Assembly: GCA_014163555.1 (NCBI GenBank)
Contig: JACJGO010000030.1
Span: forward strand, 1-61,877
Source of the DNA: Flavisolibacter longurius
GTDB lineage: Bacteria; Bacteroidota; Bacteroidia; Chitinophagales; Chitinophagaceae
Length of the DNA: 61,877 nucleotides
Direction: 5' to 3'
The translations under genes were made by a program, and so were the position numbers. The notes under the pieces are model-generated. The model ran no database searches, had not been told where the DNA came from, and was given only the letters and a program-made list of their open reading frames with translations. Of the stretch, positions 14,009 to 21,400 are shown piece by piece. Position 1 is the stretch's first letter. Every line of letters begins with the position of its first letter.

Positions 14009-15091
14009 ATGCGAAAGAACAATCTGAATGAAGAGCAAAATGAGTTGTACAAACACGGTCGTGGAGCGCAGTTCAATACCCAAAATAAATTTCTTAAAAA
14101 CGAGTTTACCCGCGAGCATAGTGAAGGCATAGACGAATGGATAGAGGCGGATGTGAAAACGCAGTTTATTGATGTAAAAGCAAAAAGCCTTGTCAACAAA
14201 GTAGAGAGTCCGGATGTGGGGATGTTTTACAGCATGAATCCTTACCAGGGTTGCGAGCATGGCTGCATTTACTGTTATGCCCGTAACTCGTTTGAATATT
14301 GGGGCTATAGTGCAGGACTTGATTTTGAAAGCAAAATCCTCGTGAAAAGAGACGCACCGAAATTGTTGCGCAAATTTTTAAGCCATCCAAGGTGGGAGTG
14401 TGTGCCCATCAGCATGAGTGGCAATACGGATTGTTACCAGCCTGCAGAAAAAAAGTTCCGGCTATCAAGGGCTTTGCTCGAAGTATGCAATGAGTTTAAC
14501 CAACCTGTTGGTATTATCACCAAAAACGCAGGTATTTTGCGGGACATTGACCTGCTGAAGGAAATGGCCGACAAGCGGATTGTTTCTGTGATCATGACCA
14601 TTACTTCGTTTAACGAAGACCTGCGGCGGGCTATGGAGCCGAGAACTACTACGGGTGCACAGCGTTTACGGACAATTGAAACATTGAGTAAGGCCGGCGT
14701 GCAAATGGGTGTAATGTTGGGGCCAATGATACCGGGACTGAACGACCATGAAATGCCGGCGATACTGAAAGCAGCAAGTGATGCCGGTGCAACATTTTCA
14801 GCTTATACATTTATCCGTCTCAATGGCGCCATTAAATTTTTATTTCACGATTGGTTGAACAAGAATTTTCCCGATCGAGCAGACAAAGTCTGGCACTTGA
14901 TTGAACAAAGCCATGGTGGAAAAGTAAACGACAGCCAGTTTGGGCGGCGTATGCGGGGAGAGGGCCCAATGGCGCAATTGATCGCAGATCAATACAAAAC
15001 CTACACAAAAAAATATGGATTAAACCATGAACGTTTAGGACTTGACTGTACAAAGTTTTGCAGGCCGGGAGAGCAGGGAAAATTGTTTTGA
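14009..15091 (+). CDS. PA0069-family radical SAM protein
   Basis: 360 residues. The radical SAM cluster motif CEHGCIYCYAR (CxxxCxxC) is at about residues 82-92. An N-terminal NPYQGCEHG and a C-terminal CRPGEQGKLF are the hallmarks of the PA0069/Rv2578c group, which is related to spore photoproduct lyase. The substrate is unproven, but the group is commonly viewed as DNA-repair related, and the SRAP and UmuD-like neighbours agree with this. Confidence 0.88.
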   Translation: MRKNNLNEEQNELYKHGRGAQFNTQNKFLKNEFTREHSEGIDEWIEADVKTQFIDVKAKSLVNKVESPDVGMFYSMNPYQGCEHGCIYCYARNSFEYWGYSAGLDFESKILVKRDAPKLLRKFLSHPRWECVPISMSGNTDCYQPAEKKFRLSRALLEVCNEFNQPVGIITKNAGILRDIDLLKEMADKRIVSVIMTITSFNEDLRRAMEPRTTTGAQRLRTIETLSKAGVQMGVMLGPMIPGLNDHEMPAILKAASDAGATFSAYTFIRLNGAIKFLFHDWLNKNFPDRADKVWHLIEQSHGGKVNDSQFGRRMRGEGPMAQLIADQYKTYTKKYGLNHERLGLDCTKFCRPGEQGKLF

Positions 15092-16246: not shown

Positions 16247-16318
16247 GGATGAATAGCTCCAAGGGTAGAGCATCACGTTGAAGCCGTGACCGTGCAAGTT
16301 CGAATCTTGCTTCATCCG
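16247..16318 (+). tRNA. tRNA-Phe (GAA)-like, CCA not encoded
   Basis: A complete cloverleaf in normal order: acceptor GGATGAA/TTCATCC (7 bp), TA at 8-9, D-stem GCTC/GAGC, anticodon stem TCACG/CGTGA with loop TTGAAGC (anticodon GAA at 16280-16282) and T-arm GCAAG-TTCGAAT-CTTGC. Oddities are a 4-base variable loop, G37-C38 instead of the usual purine A37, and a G discriminator where tRNA-Phe normally has A. It lies only 21 bases before the YkuK-like ATG, so the two are probably co-transcribed. It may be a specialised or decoy tRNA rather than the housekeeping one. Confidence 0.75.
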
Positions 16319-16339
16319 CATGACATAAAAACAAAACCA

Positions 16340-16825
16340 ATGGAACAGCAGCAAACATGGAGGAGGTTGGATGGAACACAGGTCAGGCAGTCGATTGCTG
16401 ACGAAGTGCGGCAGGCGATCGTGAGGGAAAAAAGATTGGGACACCAACTGAAGGTGTGTATCGGCACCGACAGCCAGGTAAAAGGCAGGGAAGCTGAATT
16501 TGCCACGGTGATCGTGTTTATTCGGAAAGGCAAAGGTGGATTCATGTACATCCACAGCGAAACAACAAAGCAGAAGATGGGCATCCGGCAACGAATGTTA
16601 ACCGAGGTGGCGAAGAGCATTGATGTTGCCTACGCTTTGTGCCACCTGTTTACGCTTTATGGTGTGGACATGGAAGTGCATGCGGACATCAACACCAATC
16701 CTGCTTTCAAAAGCAATCGTGCCCTGAAGGAAGCCATGGGTTACATCGCCGGAATGGGTTTCGCTTTCAAAGCCAAGCCCCATGCGTTTGCCAGCTCAAA
16801 CTGTGCTAACAAACTAGTTCAATAA
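16340..16825 (+). CDS. YkuK/DUF458 RNase H-like protein
   Basis: 161 residues from MEQQQTWRRLDG; the longer frame runs back into the tRNA. IGTDSQV followed by FATVIVF, then HADINTNPAFKSN, matches the YkuK (DUF458) family, which has a ribonuclease H-like fold whose acidic residues would bind metal. The activity of the family is unproven. It is sandwiched between a tRNA and two permuted tRNAs and followed by Band-7, AAA and RtcB genes, so a nuclease role in tRNA processing or damage is a reasonable inference. Confidence 0.75.
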   Translation: MEQQQTWRRLDGTQVRQSIADEVRQAIVREKRLGHQLKVCIGTDSQVKGREAEFATVIVFIRKGKGGFMYIHSETTKQKMGIRQRMLTEVAKSIDVAYALCHLFTLYGVDMEVHADINTNPAFKSNRALKEAMGYIAGMGFAFKAKPHAFASSNCANKLVQ

Positions 16826-16892
16826 GTTCTTTACAATATTGTTGATAGCATCAACAAAAAAGCTTGCTTAACGGCAAGATGGAGATTGTCTG

Positions 16893-16922
16893 TTGACAGC
16901 AAACCGGATGTGTGTTTTTATA
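16893..16922 (+). promoter_or_regulatory. Possible promoter upstream of the permuted tRNAs
   Basis: TTGACA (16893-16898) and TTTATA about 18 bases later resemble a sigma-70 promoter of general type. This is weak evidence, since Bacteroidota usually use a different consensus. Confidence 0.25.
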
Positions 16923-16960
16923 GCACCATAGTCCAGACGTAGTAACGCTCTGTATGCTGT

Positions 16961-16975
16961 TGCGCCAATAGCGCA
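16961..16975 (+). other. Hairpin in the leader of the permuted tRNAs
   Basis: TGCGC-CAATA-GCGCA, a perfect 5-bp stem with a 5-base loop, 10-25 bases ahead of the first 3' half. It has the size of an anticodon arm, but its role is unknown. Confidence 0.4.
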
Positions 16976-16990
16976 GTTTCCACCCACATG

Positions 16991-17062
16991 CTGTGTGTTA
17001 GAGGTTCGAGTCCTCTTCCTGCTGTGCAGCAGGATAGCTCAATGGTAGAGTAACAGTTCCCG
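16991..17062 (+). tRNA. Circularly permuted tRNA-like gene A (3' half before 5' half)
   Basis: Order in DNA: anticodon-stem 3' strand CTGT (16991-16994), T-arm AGAGG-TTCGAGT-CCTCT (17000-17016), acceptor 3' arm TCCTGCT (17017-17023), linker GTGC, acceptor 5' arm AGCAGGA (17028-17034), TA, D-arm GCTC-AATGGTA-GAGT, then (A)ACAG-TTCCCGA. The two acceptor arms are perfectly complementary (7/7). ACAG at 17053-17056 can pair with CTGT at 16991-16994, so the molecule would be completed by a join inside the anticodon loop. The 5' side of that loop reads TTCCC, which would give a CCC (Gly) anticodon. Outer boundaries are approximate. Confidence 0.6.
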
Positions 17063-17142
17063 AAGCGCAGGTTCGAATCCTGCTCCGGGCTTTGTGCCCG
17101 GATAGCTCAGTTGGTTAGAGCGCTACACTTATAATGTAGGAG
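17063..17142 (+). tRNA. Circularly permuted tRNA-like gene B, anticodon TAT
   Basis: Order in DNA: T-arm GCAGG-TTCGAAT-CCTGC (17067-17083), acceptor 3' arm TCCGGGC (17084-17090), linker TTTGT, acceptor 5' arm GCCCGGA (17096-17102), TA, D-arm GCTC-AGTTGGTTA-GAGC, G26, then an intact anticodon arm CTACA-CTTATAA-TGTAG with anticodon TAT at 17130-17132. The acceptor arms are 7/7 complementary. All cloverleaf elements are present once and in permuted order, so a mature tRNA needs a join in the variable loop (about 17142 to 17063) and removal of the linker. TAT would read AUA (Ile), which most bacteria instead read with a lysidine-modified CAU tRNA. Confidence 0.65.
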
Positions 17143-17441
17143 TAAGCAGAAGTACACCGCTTCTCAAATGGTGACCAAAACAAAAAGCCGTAAGCTCCTT
17201 CCTTTTCTTCTTTGCTCCGTGAAAGAAGAACAATCCGGCGAACACCTGCAAACAGTTGCAGCCGGTAACGGAAGCCTACTCTTCGGATACTATTAATTCG
17301 GTATTGCAGCAACACAGGTTGTGCATGCCCGGTAGACAGAGTGGAACAGTGGTGGGAAGTTGCCAGCGCAGTTGTTTCCGTGTTTATCGGATGGAAGGTT
17401 TGACGGCTTTTTAAAATTTCGAACGATTAAACAGAGATAAA
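17143..17441 (+). other. Non-coding, hairpin-rich segment after the permuted tRNAs
   Basis: No gene is seen. It holds AGAAG-TACACCG-CTTCT (5 bp, 7-base loop) from 17148, a 9-bp stem TTCTTCTTT/AAAGAAGAA at about 17206-17231, and CTGCAA-ACAG-TTGCAG. It contains no TTCGA T-loop and no further copy of the acceptor arms, so it does not supply a conventional 3' half for tRNA B. It may be the 5' UTR of the Band-7 gene. Confidence 0.4.
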
Positions 17442-18542
17442 ATGAAATGGGTAAAAATCAACGCCTACCAGGTAGGCCTGGTATTTAAGAACGGCGTTTA
17501 CCAGCGAGTGCTGAAAGAAGGAACCTACTGGTTTTGGAAAGCTGAACAGGTGTATGTGTACAACCGGATGCAACCTTTTCATGTGCCGGTGGAACTGAAC
17601 ATCCTGTTGCAGGATGAAGCCCTGGCGCAAATGCTGACAGTTGTAGAAGTAAAGGATAATGAGATTGCATTGGTGTATCAGAACGGGTTGTTTCAACAGG
17701 TGCTAACACCGGGTCGTTACACCTACTGGAAAAGTGTGATCAACTACCAGTTTGTTCATGCTGATGTCAGCAAGATCGAGATCACAGAAAACATTGATCG
17801 GACCGTGTTGCAGAACCGGTTGGTGCAGCCCTTTGTTCGCAGCAGCGAAGTGCAGAGTTATGAAAAGGCACTTTTGTTTGTGGATGGAAAATATCAATCG
17901 TTGTTGGAGCCTGGCGTGTACACCTGGTGGAAAAACAGCATCCCGGTGCAGGTGGTCAAGGTGGATGTGCGGCAGCAACAGATGGAGATCAACGGGCAGG
18001 AGATCCTGACCCGTGACAAGGCTGCTTTGCGGATCAATGCCTGGTCGCAATACAAGGTGCTTGTGGCTGAAAAGACCGTGTTGCAAAACAAGGACTGGGA
18101 AAAACAATTGTATGTGGCCTTCCAGTTGGCGTTGCGTGAATACATCAGTGGTTTCTCCTTTGATGAATTGCTGGAGAAGAAGGAAGGCATGGGGCCTGTG
18201 GTCCTGCAGCGGGTAGCGCAAAAGGCTGAAGACCTGGGTGTGGAAGTTTCCGGATTTGGTATCCGTGATATCATTTTGCCGGGCGATGTAAAGGAGATCA
18301 TGAATGGGGTATTGGTGGCTGAAAAGAAAGCGCAGGCGAACATCATCATGCGCCGTGAGGAAACGGCCAGCACCCGGAGCTTGCTGAATACCGCAAAGCT
18401 GATGGAAGAAAACGCTATGCTGTGGAAGCTGAAGGAAATGGAGTACGTGGAAAAGATCGCAGAAAGGATCAGCAATATCAGCGTAAGCGGCAGCGGTGCC
18501 CTGGTAGAGCAGTTGAAGCAGATTTTCGTGCCGCAGAAATAA
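17442..18542 (+). CDS. Soluble Band-7/SPFH (slipin-like) protein with three repeats
   Basis: 366 residues. Residues 10-33, 74-97 and 141-164 are three copies of a motif of the form G/A-L-V-F-x-N-G-x-Y-x-x-V-L-x-x-G-x-Y-x-x-W-K. Residues about 165-300 match the SPFH domain (VVKVDVRQQQMEINGQEILT, VSGFGIRDIILPGDVKEIMN), and a helical tail (EKKAQANIIMRREETA) follows. Slipins usually start with a membrane hairpin, but none is present here, so this one is probably cytoplasmic or peripheral. SPFH proteins form large ring-shaped oligomers. It is flanked by tRNA genes and followed by AAA and RtcB genes, suggesting a scaffold for RNA repair. A terminator follows. Confidence 0.82.
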   Translation: MKWVKINAYQVGLVFKNGVYQRVLKEGTYWFWKAEQVYVYNRMQPFHVPVELNILLQDEALAQMLTVVEVKDNEIALVYQNGLFQQVLTPGRYTYWKSVINYQFVHADVSKIEITENIDRTVLQNRLVQPFVRSSEVQSYEKALLFVDGKYQSLLEPGVYTWWKNSIPVQVVKVDVRQQQMEINGQEILTRDKAALRINAWSQYKVLVAEKTVLQNKDWEKQLYVAFQLALREYISGFSFDELLEKKEGMGPVVLQRVAQKAEDLGVEVSGFGIRDIILPGDVKEIMNGVLVAEKKAQANIIMRREETASTRSLLNTAKLMEENAMLWKLKEMEYVEKIAERISNISVSGSGALVEQLKQIFVPQK

Positions 18543-18583: not shown

Positions 18584-18656
18584 TGGCTTGTAGCGCAACT
18601 GGCAGCGTAGCCGGCTCTTAACCGGCGGGTTGTGGGTTCGAGTCCCACCAAGCCAA
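18584..18656 (+). tRNA. tRNA-Lys (CTT)
   Basis: Complete 73-base cloverleaf: acceptor TGGCTTG/CAAGCCA, D-stem GCGC/GCGT, anticodon stem GCCGG/CCGGC with loop CTCTTAA (anticodon CTT at 18617-18619), 5-base variable loop, T-arm GTGGG-TTCGAGT-CCCAC, discriminator A, no encoded CCA. The U1-A72 first pair is unusual for tRNA-Lys. It lies in the same orientation between the Band-7 and AAA genes. Confidence 0.88.
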
Positions 18657-18766
18657 CGAATTTTTTAATGTTTAAAACCTTGTGTTATGCGTGTTCATGT
18701 AATGAAATAGTCTTTTTGTTTGACAAGATGGTGAATAATAATTGATTAAATAGTGCAAACCAAGTT

Positions 18767-19837
18767 ATGGACAATACACAGCAACAGCGAACGTTGGATG
18801 CAGCCTCTGTTTTTGCACAGCGTTACCTGAACAGCAAGTCTTTGTACCTGTATCGCTTCAATGCGCTGCCCAATCTGCATTTTGTGGGCAACATCGATGG
18901 AGAAAAAGCGTACAAAGCATTCAAAGAAAAATTTTCCGACCTAATTGAGTCGGAGTATCAATACCGATGGTTCAAAAAAGAGAAAAAGAAGTACCAGTTT
19001 GATGATACCGTTTTTGTGTTACGCAACCAGTGCGTGGTAGAGCTAAATGGCTATTGCGAAATACTGCACGATGGAAGGCAAGACGATTTTATTGCGCAGT
19101 GCACAGGCTTGATGAATCGCTTCAAGGAAAAGAAAAAGCGGGAGCCGCTGGAAGTGAATCTGATTGTAAAAGGAAGCTATGGACTGGAATTGAAAGCAAT
19201 GGAGATCAAACGAACAAAACTCGATCTCGGCCTTTTTTACGAAGATGATTTTCGGGAAGTGGATAGTATCATTCAAAAGCGATTAAATCAGAAAAAGGAC
19301 AAAGGAATAGTTCTGTTGCATGGCTTGCCCGGTACCGGCAAAACAACCTATCTGCGCTACCTGGTTGGAAAGGTCAGAAAGCGGGTGCTGTTCCTTTCGC
19401 CAAATGTTGCAGGCAACCTGATGGATCCTGATTTTATTGATCTGCTAATCGACAATCCGAACACGGTTGTGATCATTGAAGATGCAGAAAATATTATCAT
19501 GGATCGCAGAACATCCGGAAGTTCATCTGTATCCAATTTGCTGAACATTTCCGATGGGCTGCTGGCTGACTTTTTGAATGTACAAATCATCTGTACGTTC
19601 AACAGTTCGCTGACCATGGTGGACAATGCACTGATGCGAAAAGGCCGGCTGATTGCCAAATACGAATTTGGAAAGTTGAGCACAGAAAAAGCACAACGCC
19701 TGAGCCTTCACCTTGGGTTTGATCAGACGATCACCAAACCCATGACGGTGGCAGAAATCAGCAATCCGCATGAAAAAACGTTTGAAACAAAAAGCGTGGA
19801 AGTGATAGGGTTTCGAAGAGCGGTACTGGAAAATTGA
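18767..19837 (+). CDS. BCS1-like AAA ATPase
   Basis: 356 residues. A unique N-terminal region (about 1-170) is followed by an AAA module: Walker A GLPGTGKT (186-193), Walker B VVIIEDAE (234-241), sensor-1 CTFNSS and an arginine-finger-region MRKGRLIAKYEF that is typical of BCS1-like ATPases. There is no transmembrane helix. BCS1-type AAAs remodel or move folded substrates, so here it may act on RtcB, the Band-7 ring or an RNA-protein complex (inference from context). The downstream rtcB lies 111 bp away on the same strand. Confidence 0.85.
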   Translation: MDNTQQQRTLDAASVFAQRYLNSKSLYLYRFNALPNLHFVGNIDGEKAYKAFKEKFSDLIESEYQYRWFKKEKKKYQFDDTVFVLRNQCVVELNGYCEILHDGRQDDFIAQCTGLMNRFKEKKKREPLEVNLIVKGSYGLELKAMEIKRTKLDLGLFYEDDFREVDSIIQKRLNQKKDKGIVLLHGLPGTGKTTYLRYLVGKVRKRVLFLSPNVAGNLMDPDFIDLLIDNPNTVVIIEDAENIIMDRRTSGSSSVSNLLNISDGLLADFLNVQIICTFNSSLTMVDNALMRKGRLIAKYEFGKLSTEKAQRLSLHLGFDQTITKPMTVAEISNPHEKTFETKSVEVIGFRRAVLEN

Positions 19838-19870: not shown

Positions 19871-19927
19871 TGCACCGCTTCGACTTTTCTTAGCACACGC
19901 TGAATGGAAAAGTATCGAAGCAGTGCA
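19871..19927 (+). promoter_or_regulatory. Long imperfect hairpin in the rtcB leader
   Basis: 19871-19889 pairs with 19907-19927: TGCAC/GTGCA, GCTTCGA/TCGAAGC and CTTTTC/GAAAAG, interrupted by one mismatch and a two-base asymmetry, with a 17-base loop. It ends 21 bases before the rtcB ATG. No T-tract follows, so it is a leader structure rather than a terminator. It could be a regulatory element or an RtcB/nuclease target. Confidence 0.55.
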
Positions 19928-19948
19928 ACCGGAGTTAAAAAAAGAATT

Positions 19949-21400
19949 ATGGCAAAACTTAAATTAACAGGCAAGGAGTTGCGTAAGATTGGTTACCCCG
20001 AAGGACCGGTGATCTCCATTGCCATGAACGTGATGGAAAAAAGTTTCAAGCATCTTTCAAAAGAAGATGCGCTGGAAATATTGAGCGCTGTCCTGCAAAG
20101 TCCCAACCAGTATGCACACGATGGTGTTCTGAATAAAATTGCAGAGGCCCTGTTGCCCAAACCCAAAGTGGGTGGTGACGAATTGCCGCTGGCAGAAAAA
20201 GGAATCCATTTTAATGTGTTCGGTGCCGAAGGTATTGAGCAAGGTGCCCTGCATCAAATGTACACCGCGGCCAAGCTGCCGGTGGCAGTAGGCGGTGCGC
20301 TGATGCCCGATGCGCATCATGGTTACGGATTGCCCATTGGTGGTGTACTGGCCACGGAAAACGCTGTTATTCCGTATGGAGTGGGGGTAGATATTGGCTG
20401 CCGGATGGCGCTTTCCATTTTCGACATCAATCCCAAAGAGTTGACCGACCGGGAACATTACTTTACCCGTGAGCTGAATGAAGCTACGTTGTTTGGAAGC
20501 GGGTCTGTGTTTCAAAAGCCTGCAGACCATGAAGTGATGGAACGGAAGGAATTTGATGAACTGGGATTGTTGAAAGGCCTGCAGGCAAGAGCCTGGAAAC
20601 AATTGGGCTCTTCTGGTTCGGGCAATCATTTCGTGGAATGGGGCGTGGTGGAGGTAAAGGAAAAAGACAACGTATTAGGCGTTGAGCCGGGGGCTTATGT
20701 TGGCCTGCTTTCACACTCCGGCTCACGGGCACTGGGTGCGAATGTGGCCAACCATTACACCAAACTTGCCAAAGAAAAACGGCGCCTTCCCGGCGATGCC
20801 GTAAACCTTGCCTGGCTTTCGCTGGATGAACAGGAAGGCTCGGAATACTGGATGGCCATGAACCTGGCGGGTGATTATGCCTCGGCTTGTCACCAGGTGA
20901 TTCACGACAAGATTGCAAAGCAGTTGGGTCGCAAGCCACTGAAGCGGGTAGAAAATCACCACAATTTTGCCTGGAAAGAAGTGTGGGAAGGAAGAGATGT
21001 AATCGTACACCGGAAAGGAGCAACGCCTGCCGGTAAGGATGTACTGGGGATTATTCCAGGCTCCATGGCCGCACCCGGTTTTATCGTGAAAGGAAAGGGG
21101 GAGATGGCTTCGGTGAATTCGGCTTCGCATGGTGCCGGACGGAAGATGAGCCGGACGGCTGCGTTAAAATCCGTTACCCATAAAGAGCTGAATGATGCCC
21201 TGGCCAAACAAGGGGTAAAACTCCTGGGTGGGGGATTGGACGAAGCACCGTTTGCCTACAAGGATATTCACGAAGTGATGAAAGCGCAAACAGCCTTGGT
21301 TGATACGGTTGGTGTGTTTTACCCAAAAATTGTAAAGATGGATGGGGCACAGCCGAAGCAGTGGAAGAAGGGGAAGAGTGATGCGATCATGGGGGAGTAG
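19949..21400 (+). CDS. rtcB: RNA-splicing/repair ligase RtcB
   Basis: 483 residues from MAKLKLTGKE; the longer frame runs back through the leader hairpin. RtcB joins 2',3'-cyclic phosphate (or 3'-phosphate) ends to 5'-OH ends using GTP and Mn2+. The active-site motifs are complete: DAHHGYG (121-127), GVDIGC (Cys151), GSGNHF (His227), LSHSGSR, ENHHNFAW and SHGAGR with His394, which corresponds to the guanylylated histidine. No archease, RtcA or RtcR is adjacent. The upstream + strand genes (AAA, Band-7, YkuK-like) and tRNAs define its likely pathway. Confidence 0.96.
   Translation: MAKLKLTGKELRKIGYPEGPVISIAMNVMEKSFKHLSKEDALEILSAVLQSPNQYAHDGVLNKIAEALLPKPKVGGDELPLAEKGIHFNVFGAEGIEQGALHQMYTAAKLPVAVGGALMPDAHHGYGLPIGGVLATENAVIPYGVGVDIGCRMALSIFDINPKELTDREHYFTRELNEATLFGSGSVFQKPADHEVMERKEFDELGLLKGLQARAWKQLGSSGSGNHFVEWGVVEVKEKDNVLGVEPGAYVGLLSHSGSRALGANVANHYTKLAKEKRRLPGDAVNLAWLSLDEQEGSEYWMAMNLAGDYASACHQVIHDKIAKQLGRKPLKRVENHHNFAWKEVWEGRDVIVHRKGATPAGKDVLGIIPGSMAAPGFIVKGKGEMASVNSASHGAGRKMSRTAALKSVTHKELNDALAKQGVKLLGGGLDEAPFAYKDIHEVMKAQTALVDTVGVFYPKIVKMDGAQPKQWKKGKSDAIMGE

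Follow-up and report, generated by a model that had tools for sequence, protein, structure and literature searches.

Tandem permuted tRNA-like units upstream of slipin genes form a candidate tRNA-mimic RNA of RNA-repair loci in Bacteroidota

A permuted gene order is known for tmRNA in some bacteria. The permuted tRNAs of unicellular algae and Thermofilum are processed at a BHB motif and then mature by way of a circular intermediate (PMC3978253). For the Y RNA YrlA, the role was left open by the authors, who mentioned that it might inhibit an anticodon nuclease (PMC7790460), and phage tRNAs with mutations in the anticodon loop have been proposed to evade such nucleases (PMC10264068). SPFH/Band-7 proteins, which include the slipins, have appeared in related settings: rtcB, a slipin gene (of the subfamily treated here or of another) and a tRNA array are derepressed in a trcR mutant of Anabaena (PMC10272220), and the rtc locus of Pseudomonas aeruginosa includes an SPFH protein (PMC13086221). 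Here we analyzed a locus from Flavisolibacter longurius (Chitinophagaceae, Bacteroidota) that combines a permuted tRNA-like fold with a slipin gene. The window is the 61,877-nucleotide stretch of contig JACJGO010000030.1 that contains it, and all coordinates below refer to its forward strand unless another genome is named.

The two units together span 16990-17139, with unit A at 16990-17057 and unit B at 17067-17139, both delimited by direct reading, by matches to YrlA and by covariation. In unit A, the T-arm (17000-17016) is followed by a closed acceptor hairpin of 7 bp, in which TCCTGCT (17017-17023) pairs with AGCAGGA (17028-17034) across the linker GTGC (17024-17027), and then by the D-arm (17037-17051). 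The strands CTGT (16991-16994) and ACAG (17053-17056) close the unit at the position of an anticodon stem; there is no anticodon loop, and the strand enters and leaves at that place. Unit B repeats this order with a T-arm (17067-17083), a closed 7-bp acceptor hairpin formed by TCCGGGC (17084-17090), the linker TTTGT (17091-17095) and GCCCGGA (17096-17102), and a D-arm (17105-17121). It continues into an anticodon-type hairpin, CTACA-CTTATAA-TGTAG (17123-17139), which has a perfect stem of 5 bp and a 7-nt loop carrying TAT. By its predicted pairing, unit B is a tRNA topology opened in the variable loop, and unit A is one opened at the anticodon stem. A sequence-only reading of this DNA had described a permuted tRNA topology occurring twice in tandem, with perfect acceptor pairs across these two linkers and a perfect anticodon arm in unit B. 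The arms and linkers were confirmed by reading the sequence, and the topology was borne out by that reading together with the conservation and covariation reported below.

Neither unit was reported when ARAGORN was run on the window. At its cut-offs, Rfam returned one partial tRNA match of 32.1 bits that overlaps both units, and at these cut-offs the element is absent from Rfam 15; there was no tmRNA match in the window at the Rfam gathering score and none by ARAGORN. In a permissive Rfam search, both units matched the tRNA-like part of YrlA (RF02553) with 36.7 and 34.9 bits (E values of 2.3e-6 and 7.5e-6), these being partial matches below the gathering score of 69. In the minimum-energy fold of the 150 nt alone, the T-arm, acceptor and D-arm of each unit form. 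The CTGT/ACAG stem and the hairpin of unit B are replaced by an alternative pairing, and these two elements therefore rest on covariation. The energy of this fold was modestly below that of shuffled sequences (z -1.84), with 8 of 200 shuffles as good.

The units are flanked by further structure. An alignment of 26 loci analyzed with RNAalifold placed a conserved 5' hairpin upstream of them, with approximate bounds of 16923-16962 and the motif AGCA..ACAGTGCAG..CTGTATGCTGTTG in relatives, and a conserved 3' hairpin around GAAGTACACCGCTTC at 17148-17164. Folding also indicated a 3' domain at 17183-17411, which is closed by a long-range stem between 17183-17191 and 17403-17411. This stem is terminator-like in that it ends in an oligo-T run about 30 nt 5' of the slipin start codon; visual inspection showed comparable ends in only a few relatives. 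A search of 16800-17460 yielded no sigma-70-type promoter, and a scan for short-stem terminators found none on the strand of the units.

To the right of the units lie the genes for the slipin (17442-18542), for a conventional tRNA-Lys(CTT) reported by ARAGORN (18584-18657), for an AAA ATPase (18767-19837) and for the RNA ligase RtcB (19904-21400), all on the same strand as the units. The sequence-only reading had rightly placed RtcB about 3 kb away on that strand; the distance is 2.8 kb. On the left, again on the forward strand, are a gene for an RNase H-like protein (PF04308) at 16286-16825, the start of which is possibly ATG 16343 or nearby rather than GTG 16286, and a conventional tRNA-Phe(GAA) at 16247-16319 (ARAGORN), so that conventional tRNA genes flank the RNA on both sides. 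The neighborhood was compared over 17 stretches of 10-16 kb each, one of which (L034) carries a decayed slipin. RtcB was present in 10 of the 17, once at the edge of the stretch, and gave no match in the other seven, one of which (L025) covers only 1 kb past the slipin. The RNase H-like protein was present in 8 of the 17 and the AAA ATPase in 5. At least two conventional tRNAs, and up to 13, were found in 10 of the 17, including the one with the decayed slipin. At two loci (L109 and L110), the cluster holds tRNA arrays (Asn, His, Lys, Ile, Arg, Phe, Gln and others). A radical SAM protein is encoded upstream in the window (14009-15091) and lies near the cluster in 5 of the 17 stretches (L026, L029, L108, L110 and L114). 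Of the neighboring genes, only that for the slipin accompanies the RNA constantly. PADLOC gave two marginal matches for the AAA protein and none for the other three window proteins, and NCBIfam named none of the four above its cut-offs.

The slipin was used to collect homologous loci. A threshold of E<=1e-60 gave 64 positive genomes out of 294 in the host's family, and one of E<=1e-50 gave 20 out of 395 in the phylum; these matches, pooled with ten strong ones, make up a first set of 83 slipin loci. With one acceptor mismatch allowed, 81 of the 83 have one or more permuted units in the 720 nt 5' of the slipin, on its strand; the two without are L105 and L107. The first set yielded 139 units with 125 distinct acceptor pairs. 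A perfect acceptor of 5-7 bp outside ARAGORN tRNAs was present at 75 of the 83 loci, and one of 6-7 bp at 62. A second set comprised 80 loci from named genomes, the best 80 of 548 and including 16 that repeat first-set leaders. A unit was present in 78 of these; the misses were L244 and L243, the latter with only 226 nt of upstream sequence. The named hosts include Chitinophaga, Niastella, Niabella, Flavihumibacter, Chryseolinea, Runella, Flavobacterium and Aquimarina. A strict scan detected a unit at 9 of 10 strong slipin matches (all but L006), although some of its hits are due to chance, as at L005, and at 0 of 14 weak or decayed ones (L011-L024), which served as a negative control. Among the latter, L011 and L024 (G025) represent a decayed slipin gene with stop codons, for which the strict scan gave no unit. 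No slipin relatives were found in viral contigs or phage records. The module can be extended: at two loci (L163 in G629 and L165 in G413), units A and B are succeeded by a third permuted unit, which has an anticodon-type hairpin of its own.

The reality of the pairing was examined by a swap control on 158 T-arms located within 720 nt before the 83 slipin genes. Of these, 88 are followed by a perfect acceptor hairpin of 6-7 bp and a D-arm, 28 by a perfect hairpin of 5 bp and 23 by one with a mismatch; 19 have none. When the acceptor 3' strand was swapped between loci, perfect hairpins of 6-7 bp numbered 4.8 on average and 10 at most over 200 rounds, compared with the observed 88. When the acceptor strands were each shuffled, the mean was 9.0 and the maximum 18. 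An alignment was then considered of the 42 loci in which both units were fully parsed. Such selection by parse favors structure; the swap control is independent of it. In this alignment, 93.4% of the cells pair, versus 38-50% when partners are slid; double-sided changes occur at 36 of 41 pairs, in each of the eight helices, and the 445 double-change cells compare with a shuffle mean of 123. RNAalifold independently predicted 34 of the 41 pairs; those it missed belong to the D-arm of unit B or are the outermost ones of the acceptors. The five inner acceptor pairs are complete in 117 of 139 units with the permuted partners versus 2 of 58 with the conventional ones, the first of these counts being biased because units were chosen for pairing, so that the swap control is the fair test. 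The tRNA elbow positions are likewise maintained. U8, A14, G19 and C56 are present in 42 of 42 sequences for unit A, and the corresponding positions of unit B in 38-42 of 42 (U8 in 38, A14 in 40 and the G in 40). The T-loop and the GG of the D-loop were search criteria, whereas U8 and A14 were not. The sequence-only reading had named loss of acceptor complementarity at homologous loci as something that would refute it; as judged by both the swap control and covariation, these loci keep the complementarity.

The specificity of the element was assessed with a two-unit covariance model built from this 42-sequence alignment, which includes the window. The window, being a training sequence, scored 130.6 bits. 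Scores of at least 82 bits were reached by 59 of the 83 first-set loci, of which 42 were training sequences and 17 were not, and by 60 of the 80 second-set loci, so by this measure the full two-unit form is missing from at least a quarter of the loci. Those 59 first-set loci outscored every ordinary tandem tRNA seen. When 345 genomes of the phylum were scanned, 342 had matches at E<=0.001. Those inspected that scored under 82 bits resemble ordinary tandem tRNAs, and use was therefore restricted to the 15 listed matches of at least 90 bits. All 15 lie, by coordinates, within 720 nt 5' of a slipin; 8 of them were in the training alignment of the model and 7 were not. The highest listed match away from a slipin in the 345 genomes scored 81.1 bits. 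Among the 20 slipin-bearing genomes of the phylum, four (G331, G409, G511 and G570) had no match of at least 90 bits, and a fifth (G074) was outside the rows of the scan. The simple hairpin parser is not specific in tRNA arrays: it fired at 5 of 15 loci without a slipin (L171, L173, L175, L178 and L180 among L170-L184), several of which have ordinary tandem tRNAs.

Slipin relatives outside Bacteroidota were present on nine plasmid or large replicon records, five of which were read; they are treated as leads and were kept out of all counts. The relative in Citrobacter adjoins rtcR, and that in E. coli adjoins RlaP, of an RNA-repair polymerase family; of 5426 E. coli genomes, 1617 contain 80% or more of the length of this E. 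coli stretch. By eye, a T-arm and then a closed hairpin lie 5' of the slipin in both E. coli (L267:5460-6000) and Citrobacter (L266:5700-5990), the hairpins being ATTCATT/AATGAAT and TTTCAT/ATGAAA, respectively. With the model, the Citrobacter and E. coli leaders scored 14.0 and 15.6 bits, and the Citrobacter leader folded no better than shuffles (z -1.0, 27/200). In Subdoligranulum (Bacillota), a T-arm, a closed hairpin of 7 bp and a weak D-arm were seen by eye before the slipin (L265:5655-5760). This leader scored 23.3 bits with the model and folded better than shuffles (z -4.3); it is possibly a single unit. The Photobacterium leader contains conventional-looking tRNAs, and the Burkholderia leader a conventional tRNA match; with the model, they scored 50 and 29 bits, respectively.

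The anticodon-type loop of unit B is the variable part of the element. Loops of 7 nt were parsed 58 times in the first set, where they fall into 39 types, and 31 times in the second. A unit-B hairpin with such a loop was not parsed at 25 of the 83 first-set loci, which makes the displayed anticodon loop a common but not a universal feature. U33 is kept in 43 of the 58 and 26 of the 31 loops; its loss in 20 of 89 compares with 4 of 150 conventional tRNAs (p 1.5e-6). The tRNA pattern at positions 36 and 37 is seen in 55 of the 58 first-set loops (G-G 23, U-A 21, A-A 9 and C-A 2) and in 26 of the 31 second-set loops, in which A36 is followed three times by G37 and once by A37, all counted against the pattern. 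C36 is rare, at 4 of 89 loops versus 21 of 150 sampled tRNAs (p 0.027) or versus 8 of 31 tRNAs sampled from this genome and counted by eye (p 0.002). An exact match to the anticodon loop of a sampled conventional tRNA was found for 21 of the 58 loops, compared with a mean of 10.4 and a maximum of 18 in 1000 column shuffles; the reference is partial, comprising tRNAs near 30 of this genome's 45 matches and neighbors of other loci. Comparison of 34 same-genus pairs shows 293 of 338 positions of the hairpin stem (87%) unchanged, whereas divergence is greatest at positions 34 and 35 of the anticodon, which are identical in 11 (32%) and 15 (44%) of the 34, respectively; whole loops are identical in 6. 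In one comparison (L038 and L041), units A and B are the same save for two changes in the loop, CGGTTAA versus CTGATAA. Loop and pair counts are not fully independent owing to shared ancestry. As far as the compared sequences tell, the pattern of unit B is one of a constant frame with an exchangeable loop.

Several explanations of the element must be weighed. Pairing by chance, or the presence of relics of ordinary tandem tRNA genes, might be suspected from the partial tRNA match of 32.1 bits over both units and from the response of the hairpin parser at 5 of the 15 inspected non-slipin loci. However, it is the permuted partners that pair and not the conventional ones, only 1 of the 139 units lies inside an ARAGORN tRNA, and the contrast of 88 hairpins with the swap mean of 4.8, with covariation in the alignment, refutes chance pairing; we regard the probability of this explanation as negligible. 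The sequence-only reading took the units for tRNA genes, and this part of it was not supported. Were they functional circularly permuted genes, the transcript would be cut, its ends joined by RtcB and the linker removed to make a normal tRNA. Such a reading agrees with the permuted order, the paired acceptors, the intact unit-B anticodon arm, the nearby RtcB and the retention of U33 in 69 of 89 unit-B loops. Linkers here are 3-13 nt long, most commonly GTAA (6) and GAAA (5), and an archaeal permuted tRNA with an intervening sequence of 1 nt has been described (PMC3978253), so short linkers alone do not exclude tRNA genes. On the other hand, unit A cannot decode because its anticodon loop is missing, the anticodon of unit B differs between close relatives, and U33 is lost in 20 of the 89 loops. 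With one mismatch allowed, the best parse of the acceptor is 5 bp in 40, 6 bp in 48 and 7 bp in 51 of the 139 units; in the window both acceptors have 7 bp and unit B has U33. The acceptor 3' strand is followed by CCA in 0 of 139 units, and base 73 is unconserved (A in 54, T in 50, C in 24 and G in 11), although CCA may be added by an enzyme. Permuted tRNA genes were rejected as the main reading on U33, acceptor length and the loopless unit A, and we consider them very unlikely; the units probably do not encode functional tRNAs and are more likely to act as tRNA-imitating decoys or sensors.

A true Y RNA, in which the tRNA-like domain belongs to YrlA and works with Ro60, would explain why both units match the Rfam YrlA family. 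The Salmonella operon rsr-yrlBA-rtcBA contains both YrlA and RtcB (PMC7790460), and in one genome (G263, contig 1, 568925-573986) a Ro60 gene (TROVE) lies about 3 kb upstream of the slipin on the same strand, the leader there (L098) scoring 85 bits with the covariance model. Yet the YrlA scores are under the gathering score of 69, no TROVE match was found in the 99.8% complete genome of the window, Ro60 occurs anywhere in only 7 of the 64 slipin genomes of the host's family versus 4.4 expected by chance, and the element here has two units and longer flanks. The assignment to true Y RNAs was dropped because of the score below the cut-off and the failure to find Ro60, and it appears improbable. 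The strongest rival is instead a leader that controls the slipin in cis. Termination at the 3' stem would be one way of doing so, with the tRNA mimics bound by a regulator that recognizes tRNA. The location of a unit within 720 nt 5' of slipin on the same strand at 81 of 83 loci suits this possibility, as does the long-range stem with its oligo-T about 30 nt before the start codon in the window. The standard scan, however, found no short-stem terminator on this strand, and a single regulator leaves the variation of the loop on a constant stem unexplained. We view cis control as possible though rather unlikely as the main function, and the cis and bait roles may both hold.

The reading we prefer starts from the sequence of the RNA, its covarying secondary structure, its linkage to slipin and the variability of its loop, all of which were computed. 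We tentatively propose, without putting it quite at even chances, that this is a tRNA-mimic RNA of RNA-repair loci that serves as a decoy or sensor for tRNA-damaging nucleases, a function that we infer. A structured non-coding RNA some 500 nt long would have the two units at its core, and it is presumably transcribed as one molecule directly 5' of slipin and on the same strand. Each unit is predicted to fold as a tRNA-like L with the acceptor end sealed by a tight loop, giving a tRNA look-alike that could not be charged; such an RNA might occupy tRNA-recognizing enzymes without entering translation. Unit A would anchor the module, and unit B would display the 7-nt anticodon-type loop. In this way, the RNA could present tRNA elbows and an exchangeable loop to tRNA-damaging enzymes such as anticodon nucleases. 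The bait might either titrate these nucleases or report an attack on tRNAs to its putative partners in the repair cluster, namely the slipin, the AAA protein, RtcB and the spare tRNAs. A tRNA-like loop would draw anticodon nucleases, while a changed U33 might prevent cleavage, which might mean that the bait is bound but uncut. RtcB could mend cut tRNAs or the bait itself, and spare tRNAs would fit the same stress. It is doubtful, though conceivable, that these RNAs form a class of baits in which the scaffold stays constant and the loop is rapidly replaced to mimic whichever tRNAs are attacked, which would make them an RNA-level defense against anticodon nucleases that acts with slipin and RNA ligase. 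Against the bait reading stand the exact match of only 21 of 58 loops to a sampled tRNA loop and the retention of U33 in 69 of 89, together with the seven stretches that gave no RtcB match, the lack of the closing stem and the unit-B hairpin in the single-sequence fold, and the negative promoter search; the placement directly 5' of slipin suits cis-regulation equally. The idea of a decoy is testable, as the loops predict which tRNAs, and hence which nucleases, matter. If correct, slipins of RNA-repair loci gain a candidate RNA partner. A caution for annotation is that such units can score as partial tRNA genes.

How the element relates to known systems can be stated as follows. Its fold, that of a tRNA mimic, is known already; the tandem arrangement, the display of a loop, the link to slipin and the absence of Ro60 we did not find described in a literature search of incomplete coverage that took in titles and the openings of abstracts. 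The same Y RNA-type fold recurs in tandem in many Bacteroidota, mostly without Ro60 and with a loop that varies as if it were tracking anticodons. It shares with YrlA the permuted order of T-arm, acceptor hairpin and D-arm, the closing stem at the anticodon-stem position and the setting near rtcB. It differs from YrlA in being tandem, with a third unit in G413 and G629, and, by conservation, in its longer flanks; here the partner is a slipin, unit B has an anticodon-type hairpin with a variable loop, and Ro60 was not found. With the permuted tRNA genes of unicellular algae and Thermofilum it has in common that the 3' half precedes the 5' half and that the acceptors pair across a short linker, but decoding features are missing or relaxed in the units described here. 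The phage tRNAs (PMC10264068) resemble unit B in their tRNA-like anticodon loops, which carry changes and are tied to tRNA damage, but they are conventional and were proposed to serve translation. In the trn operon and TrcR regulon of Anabaena (PMC10272220), an extra tRNA array, rtcB and a slipin gene likewise come together, there under one stress regulator; the main text of that study uses neither "permuted" nor "tRNA-like".
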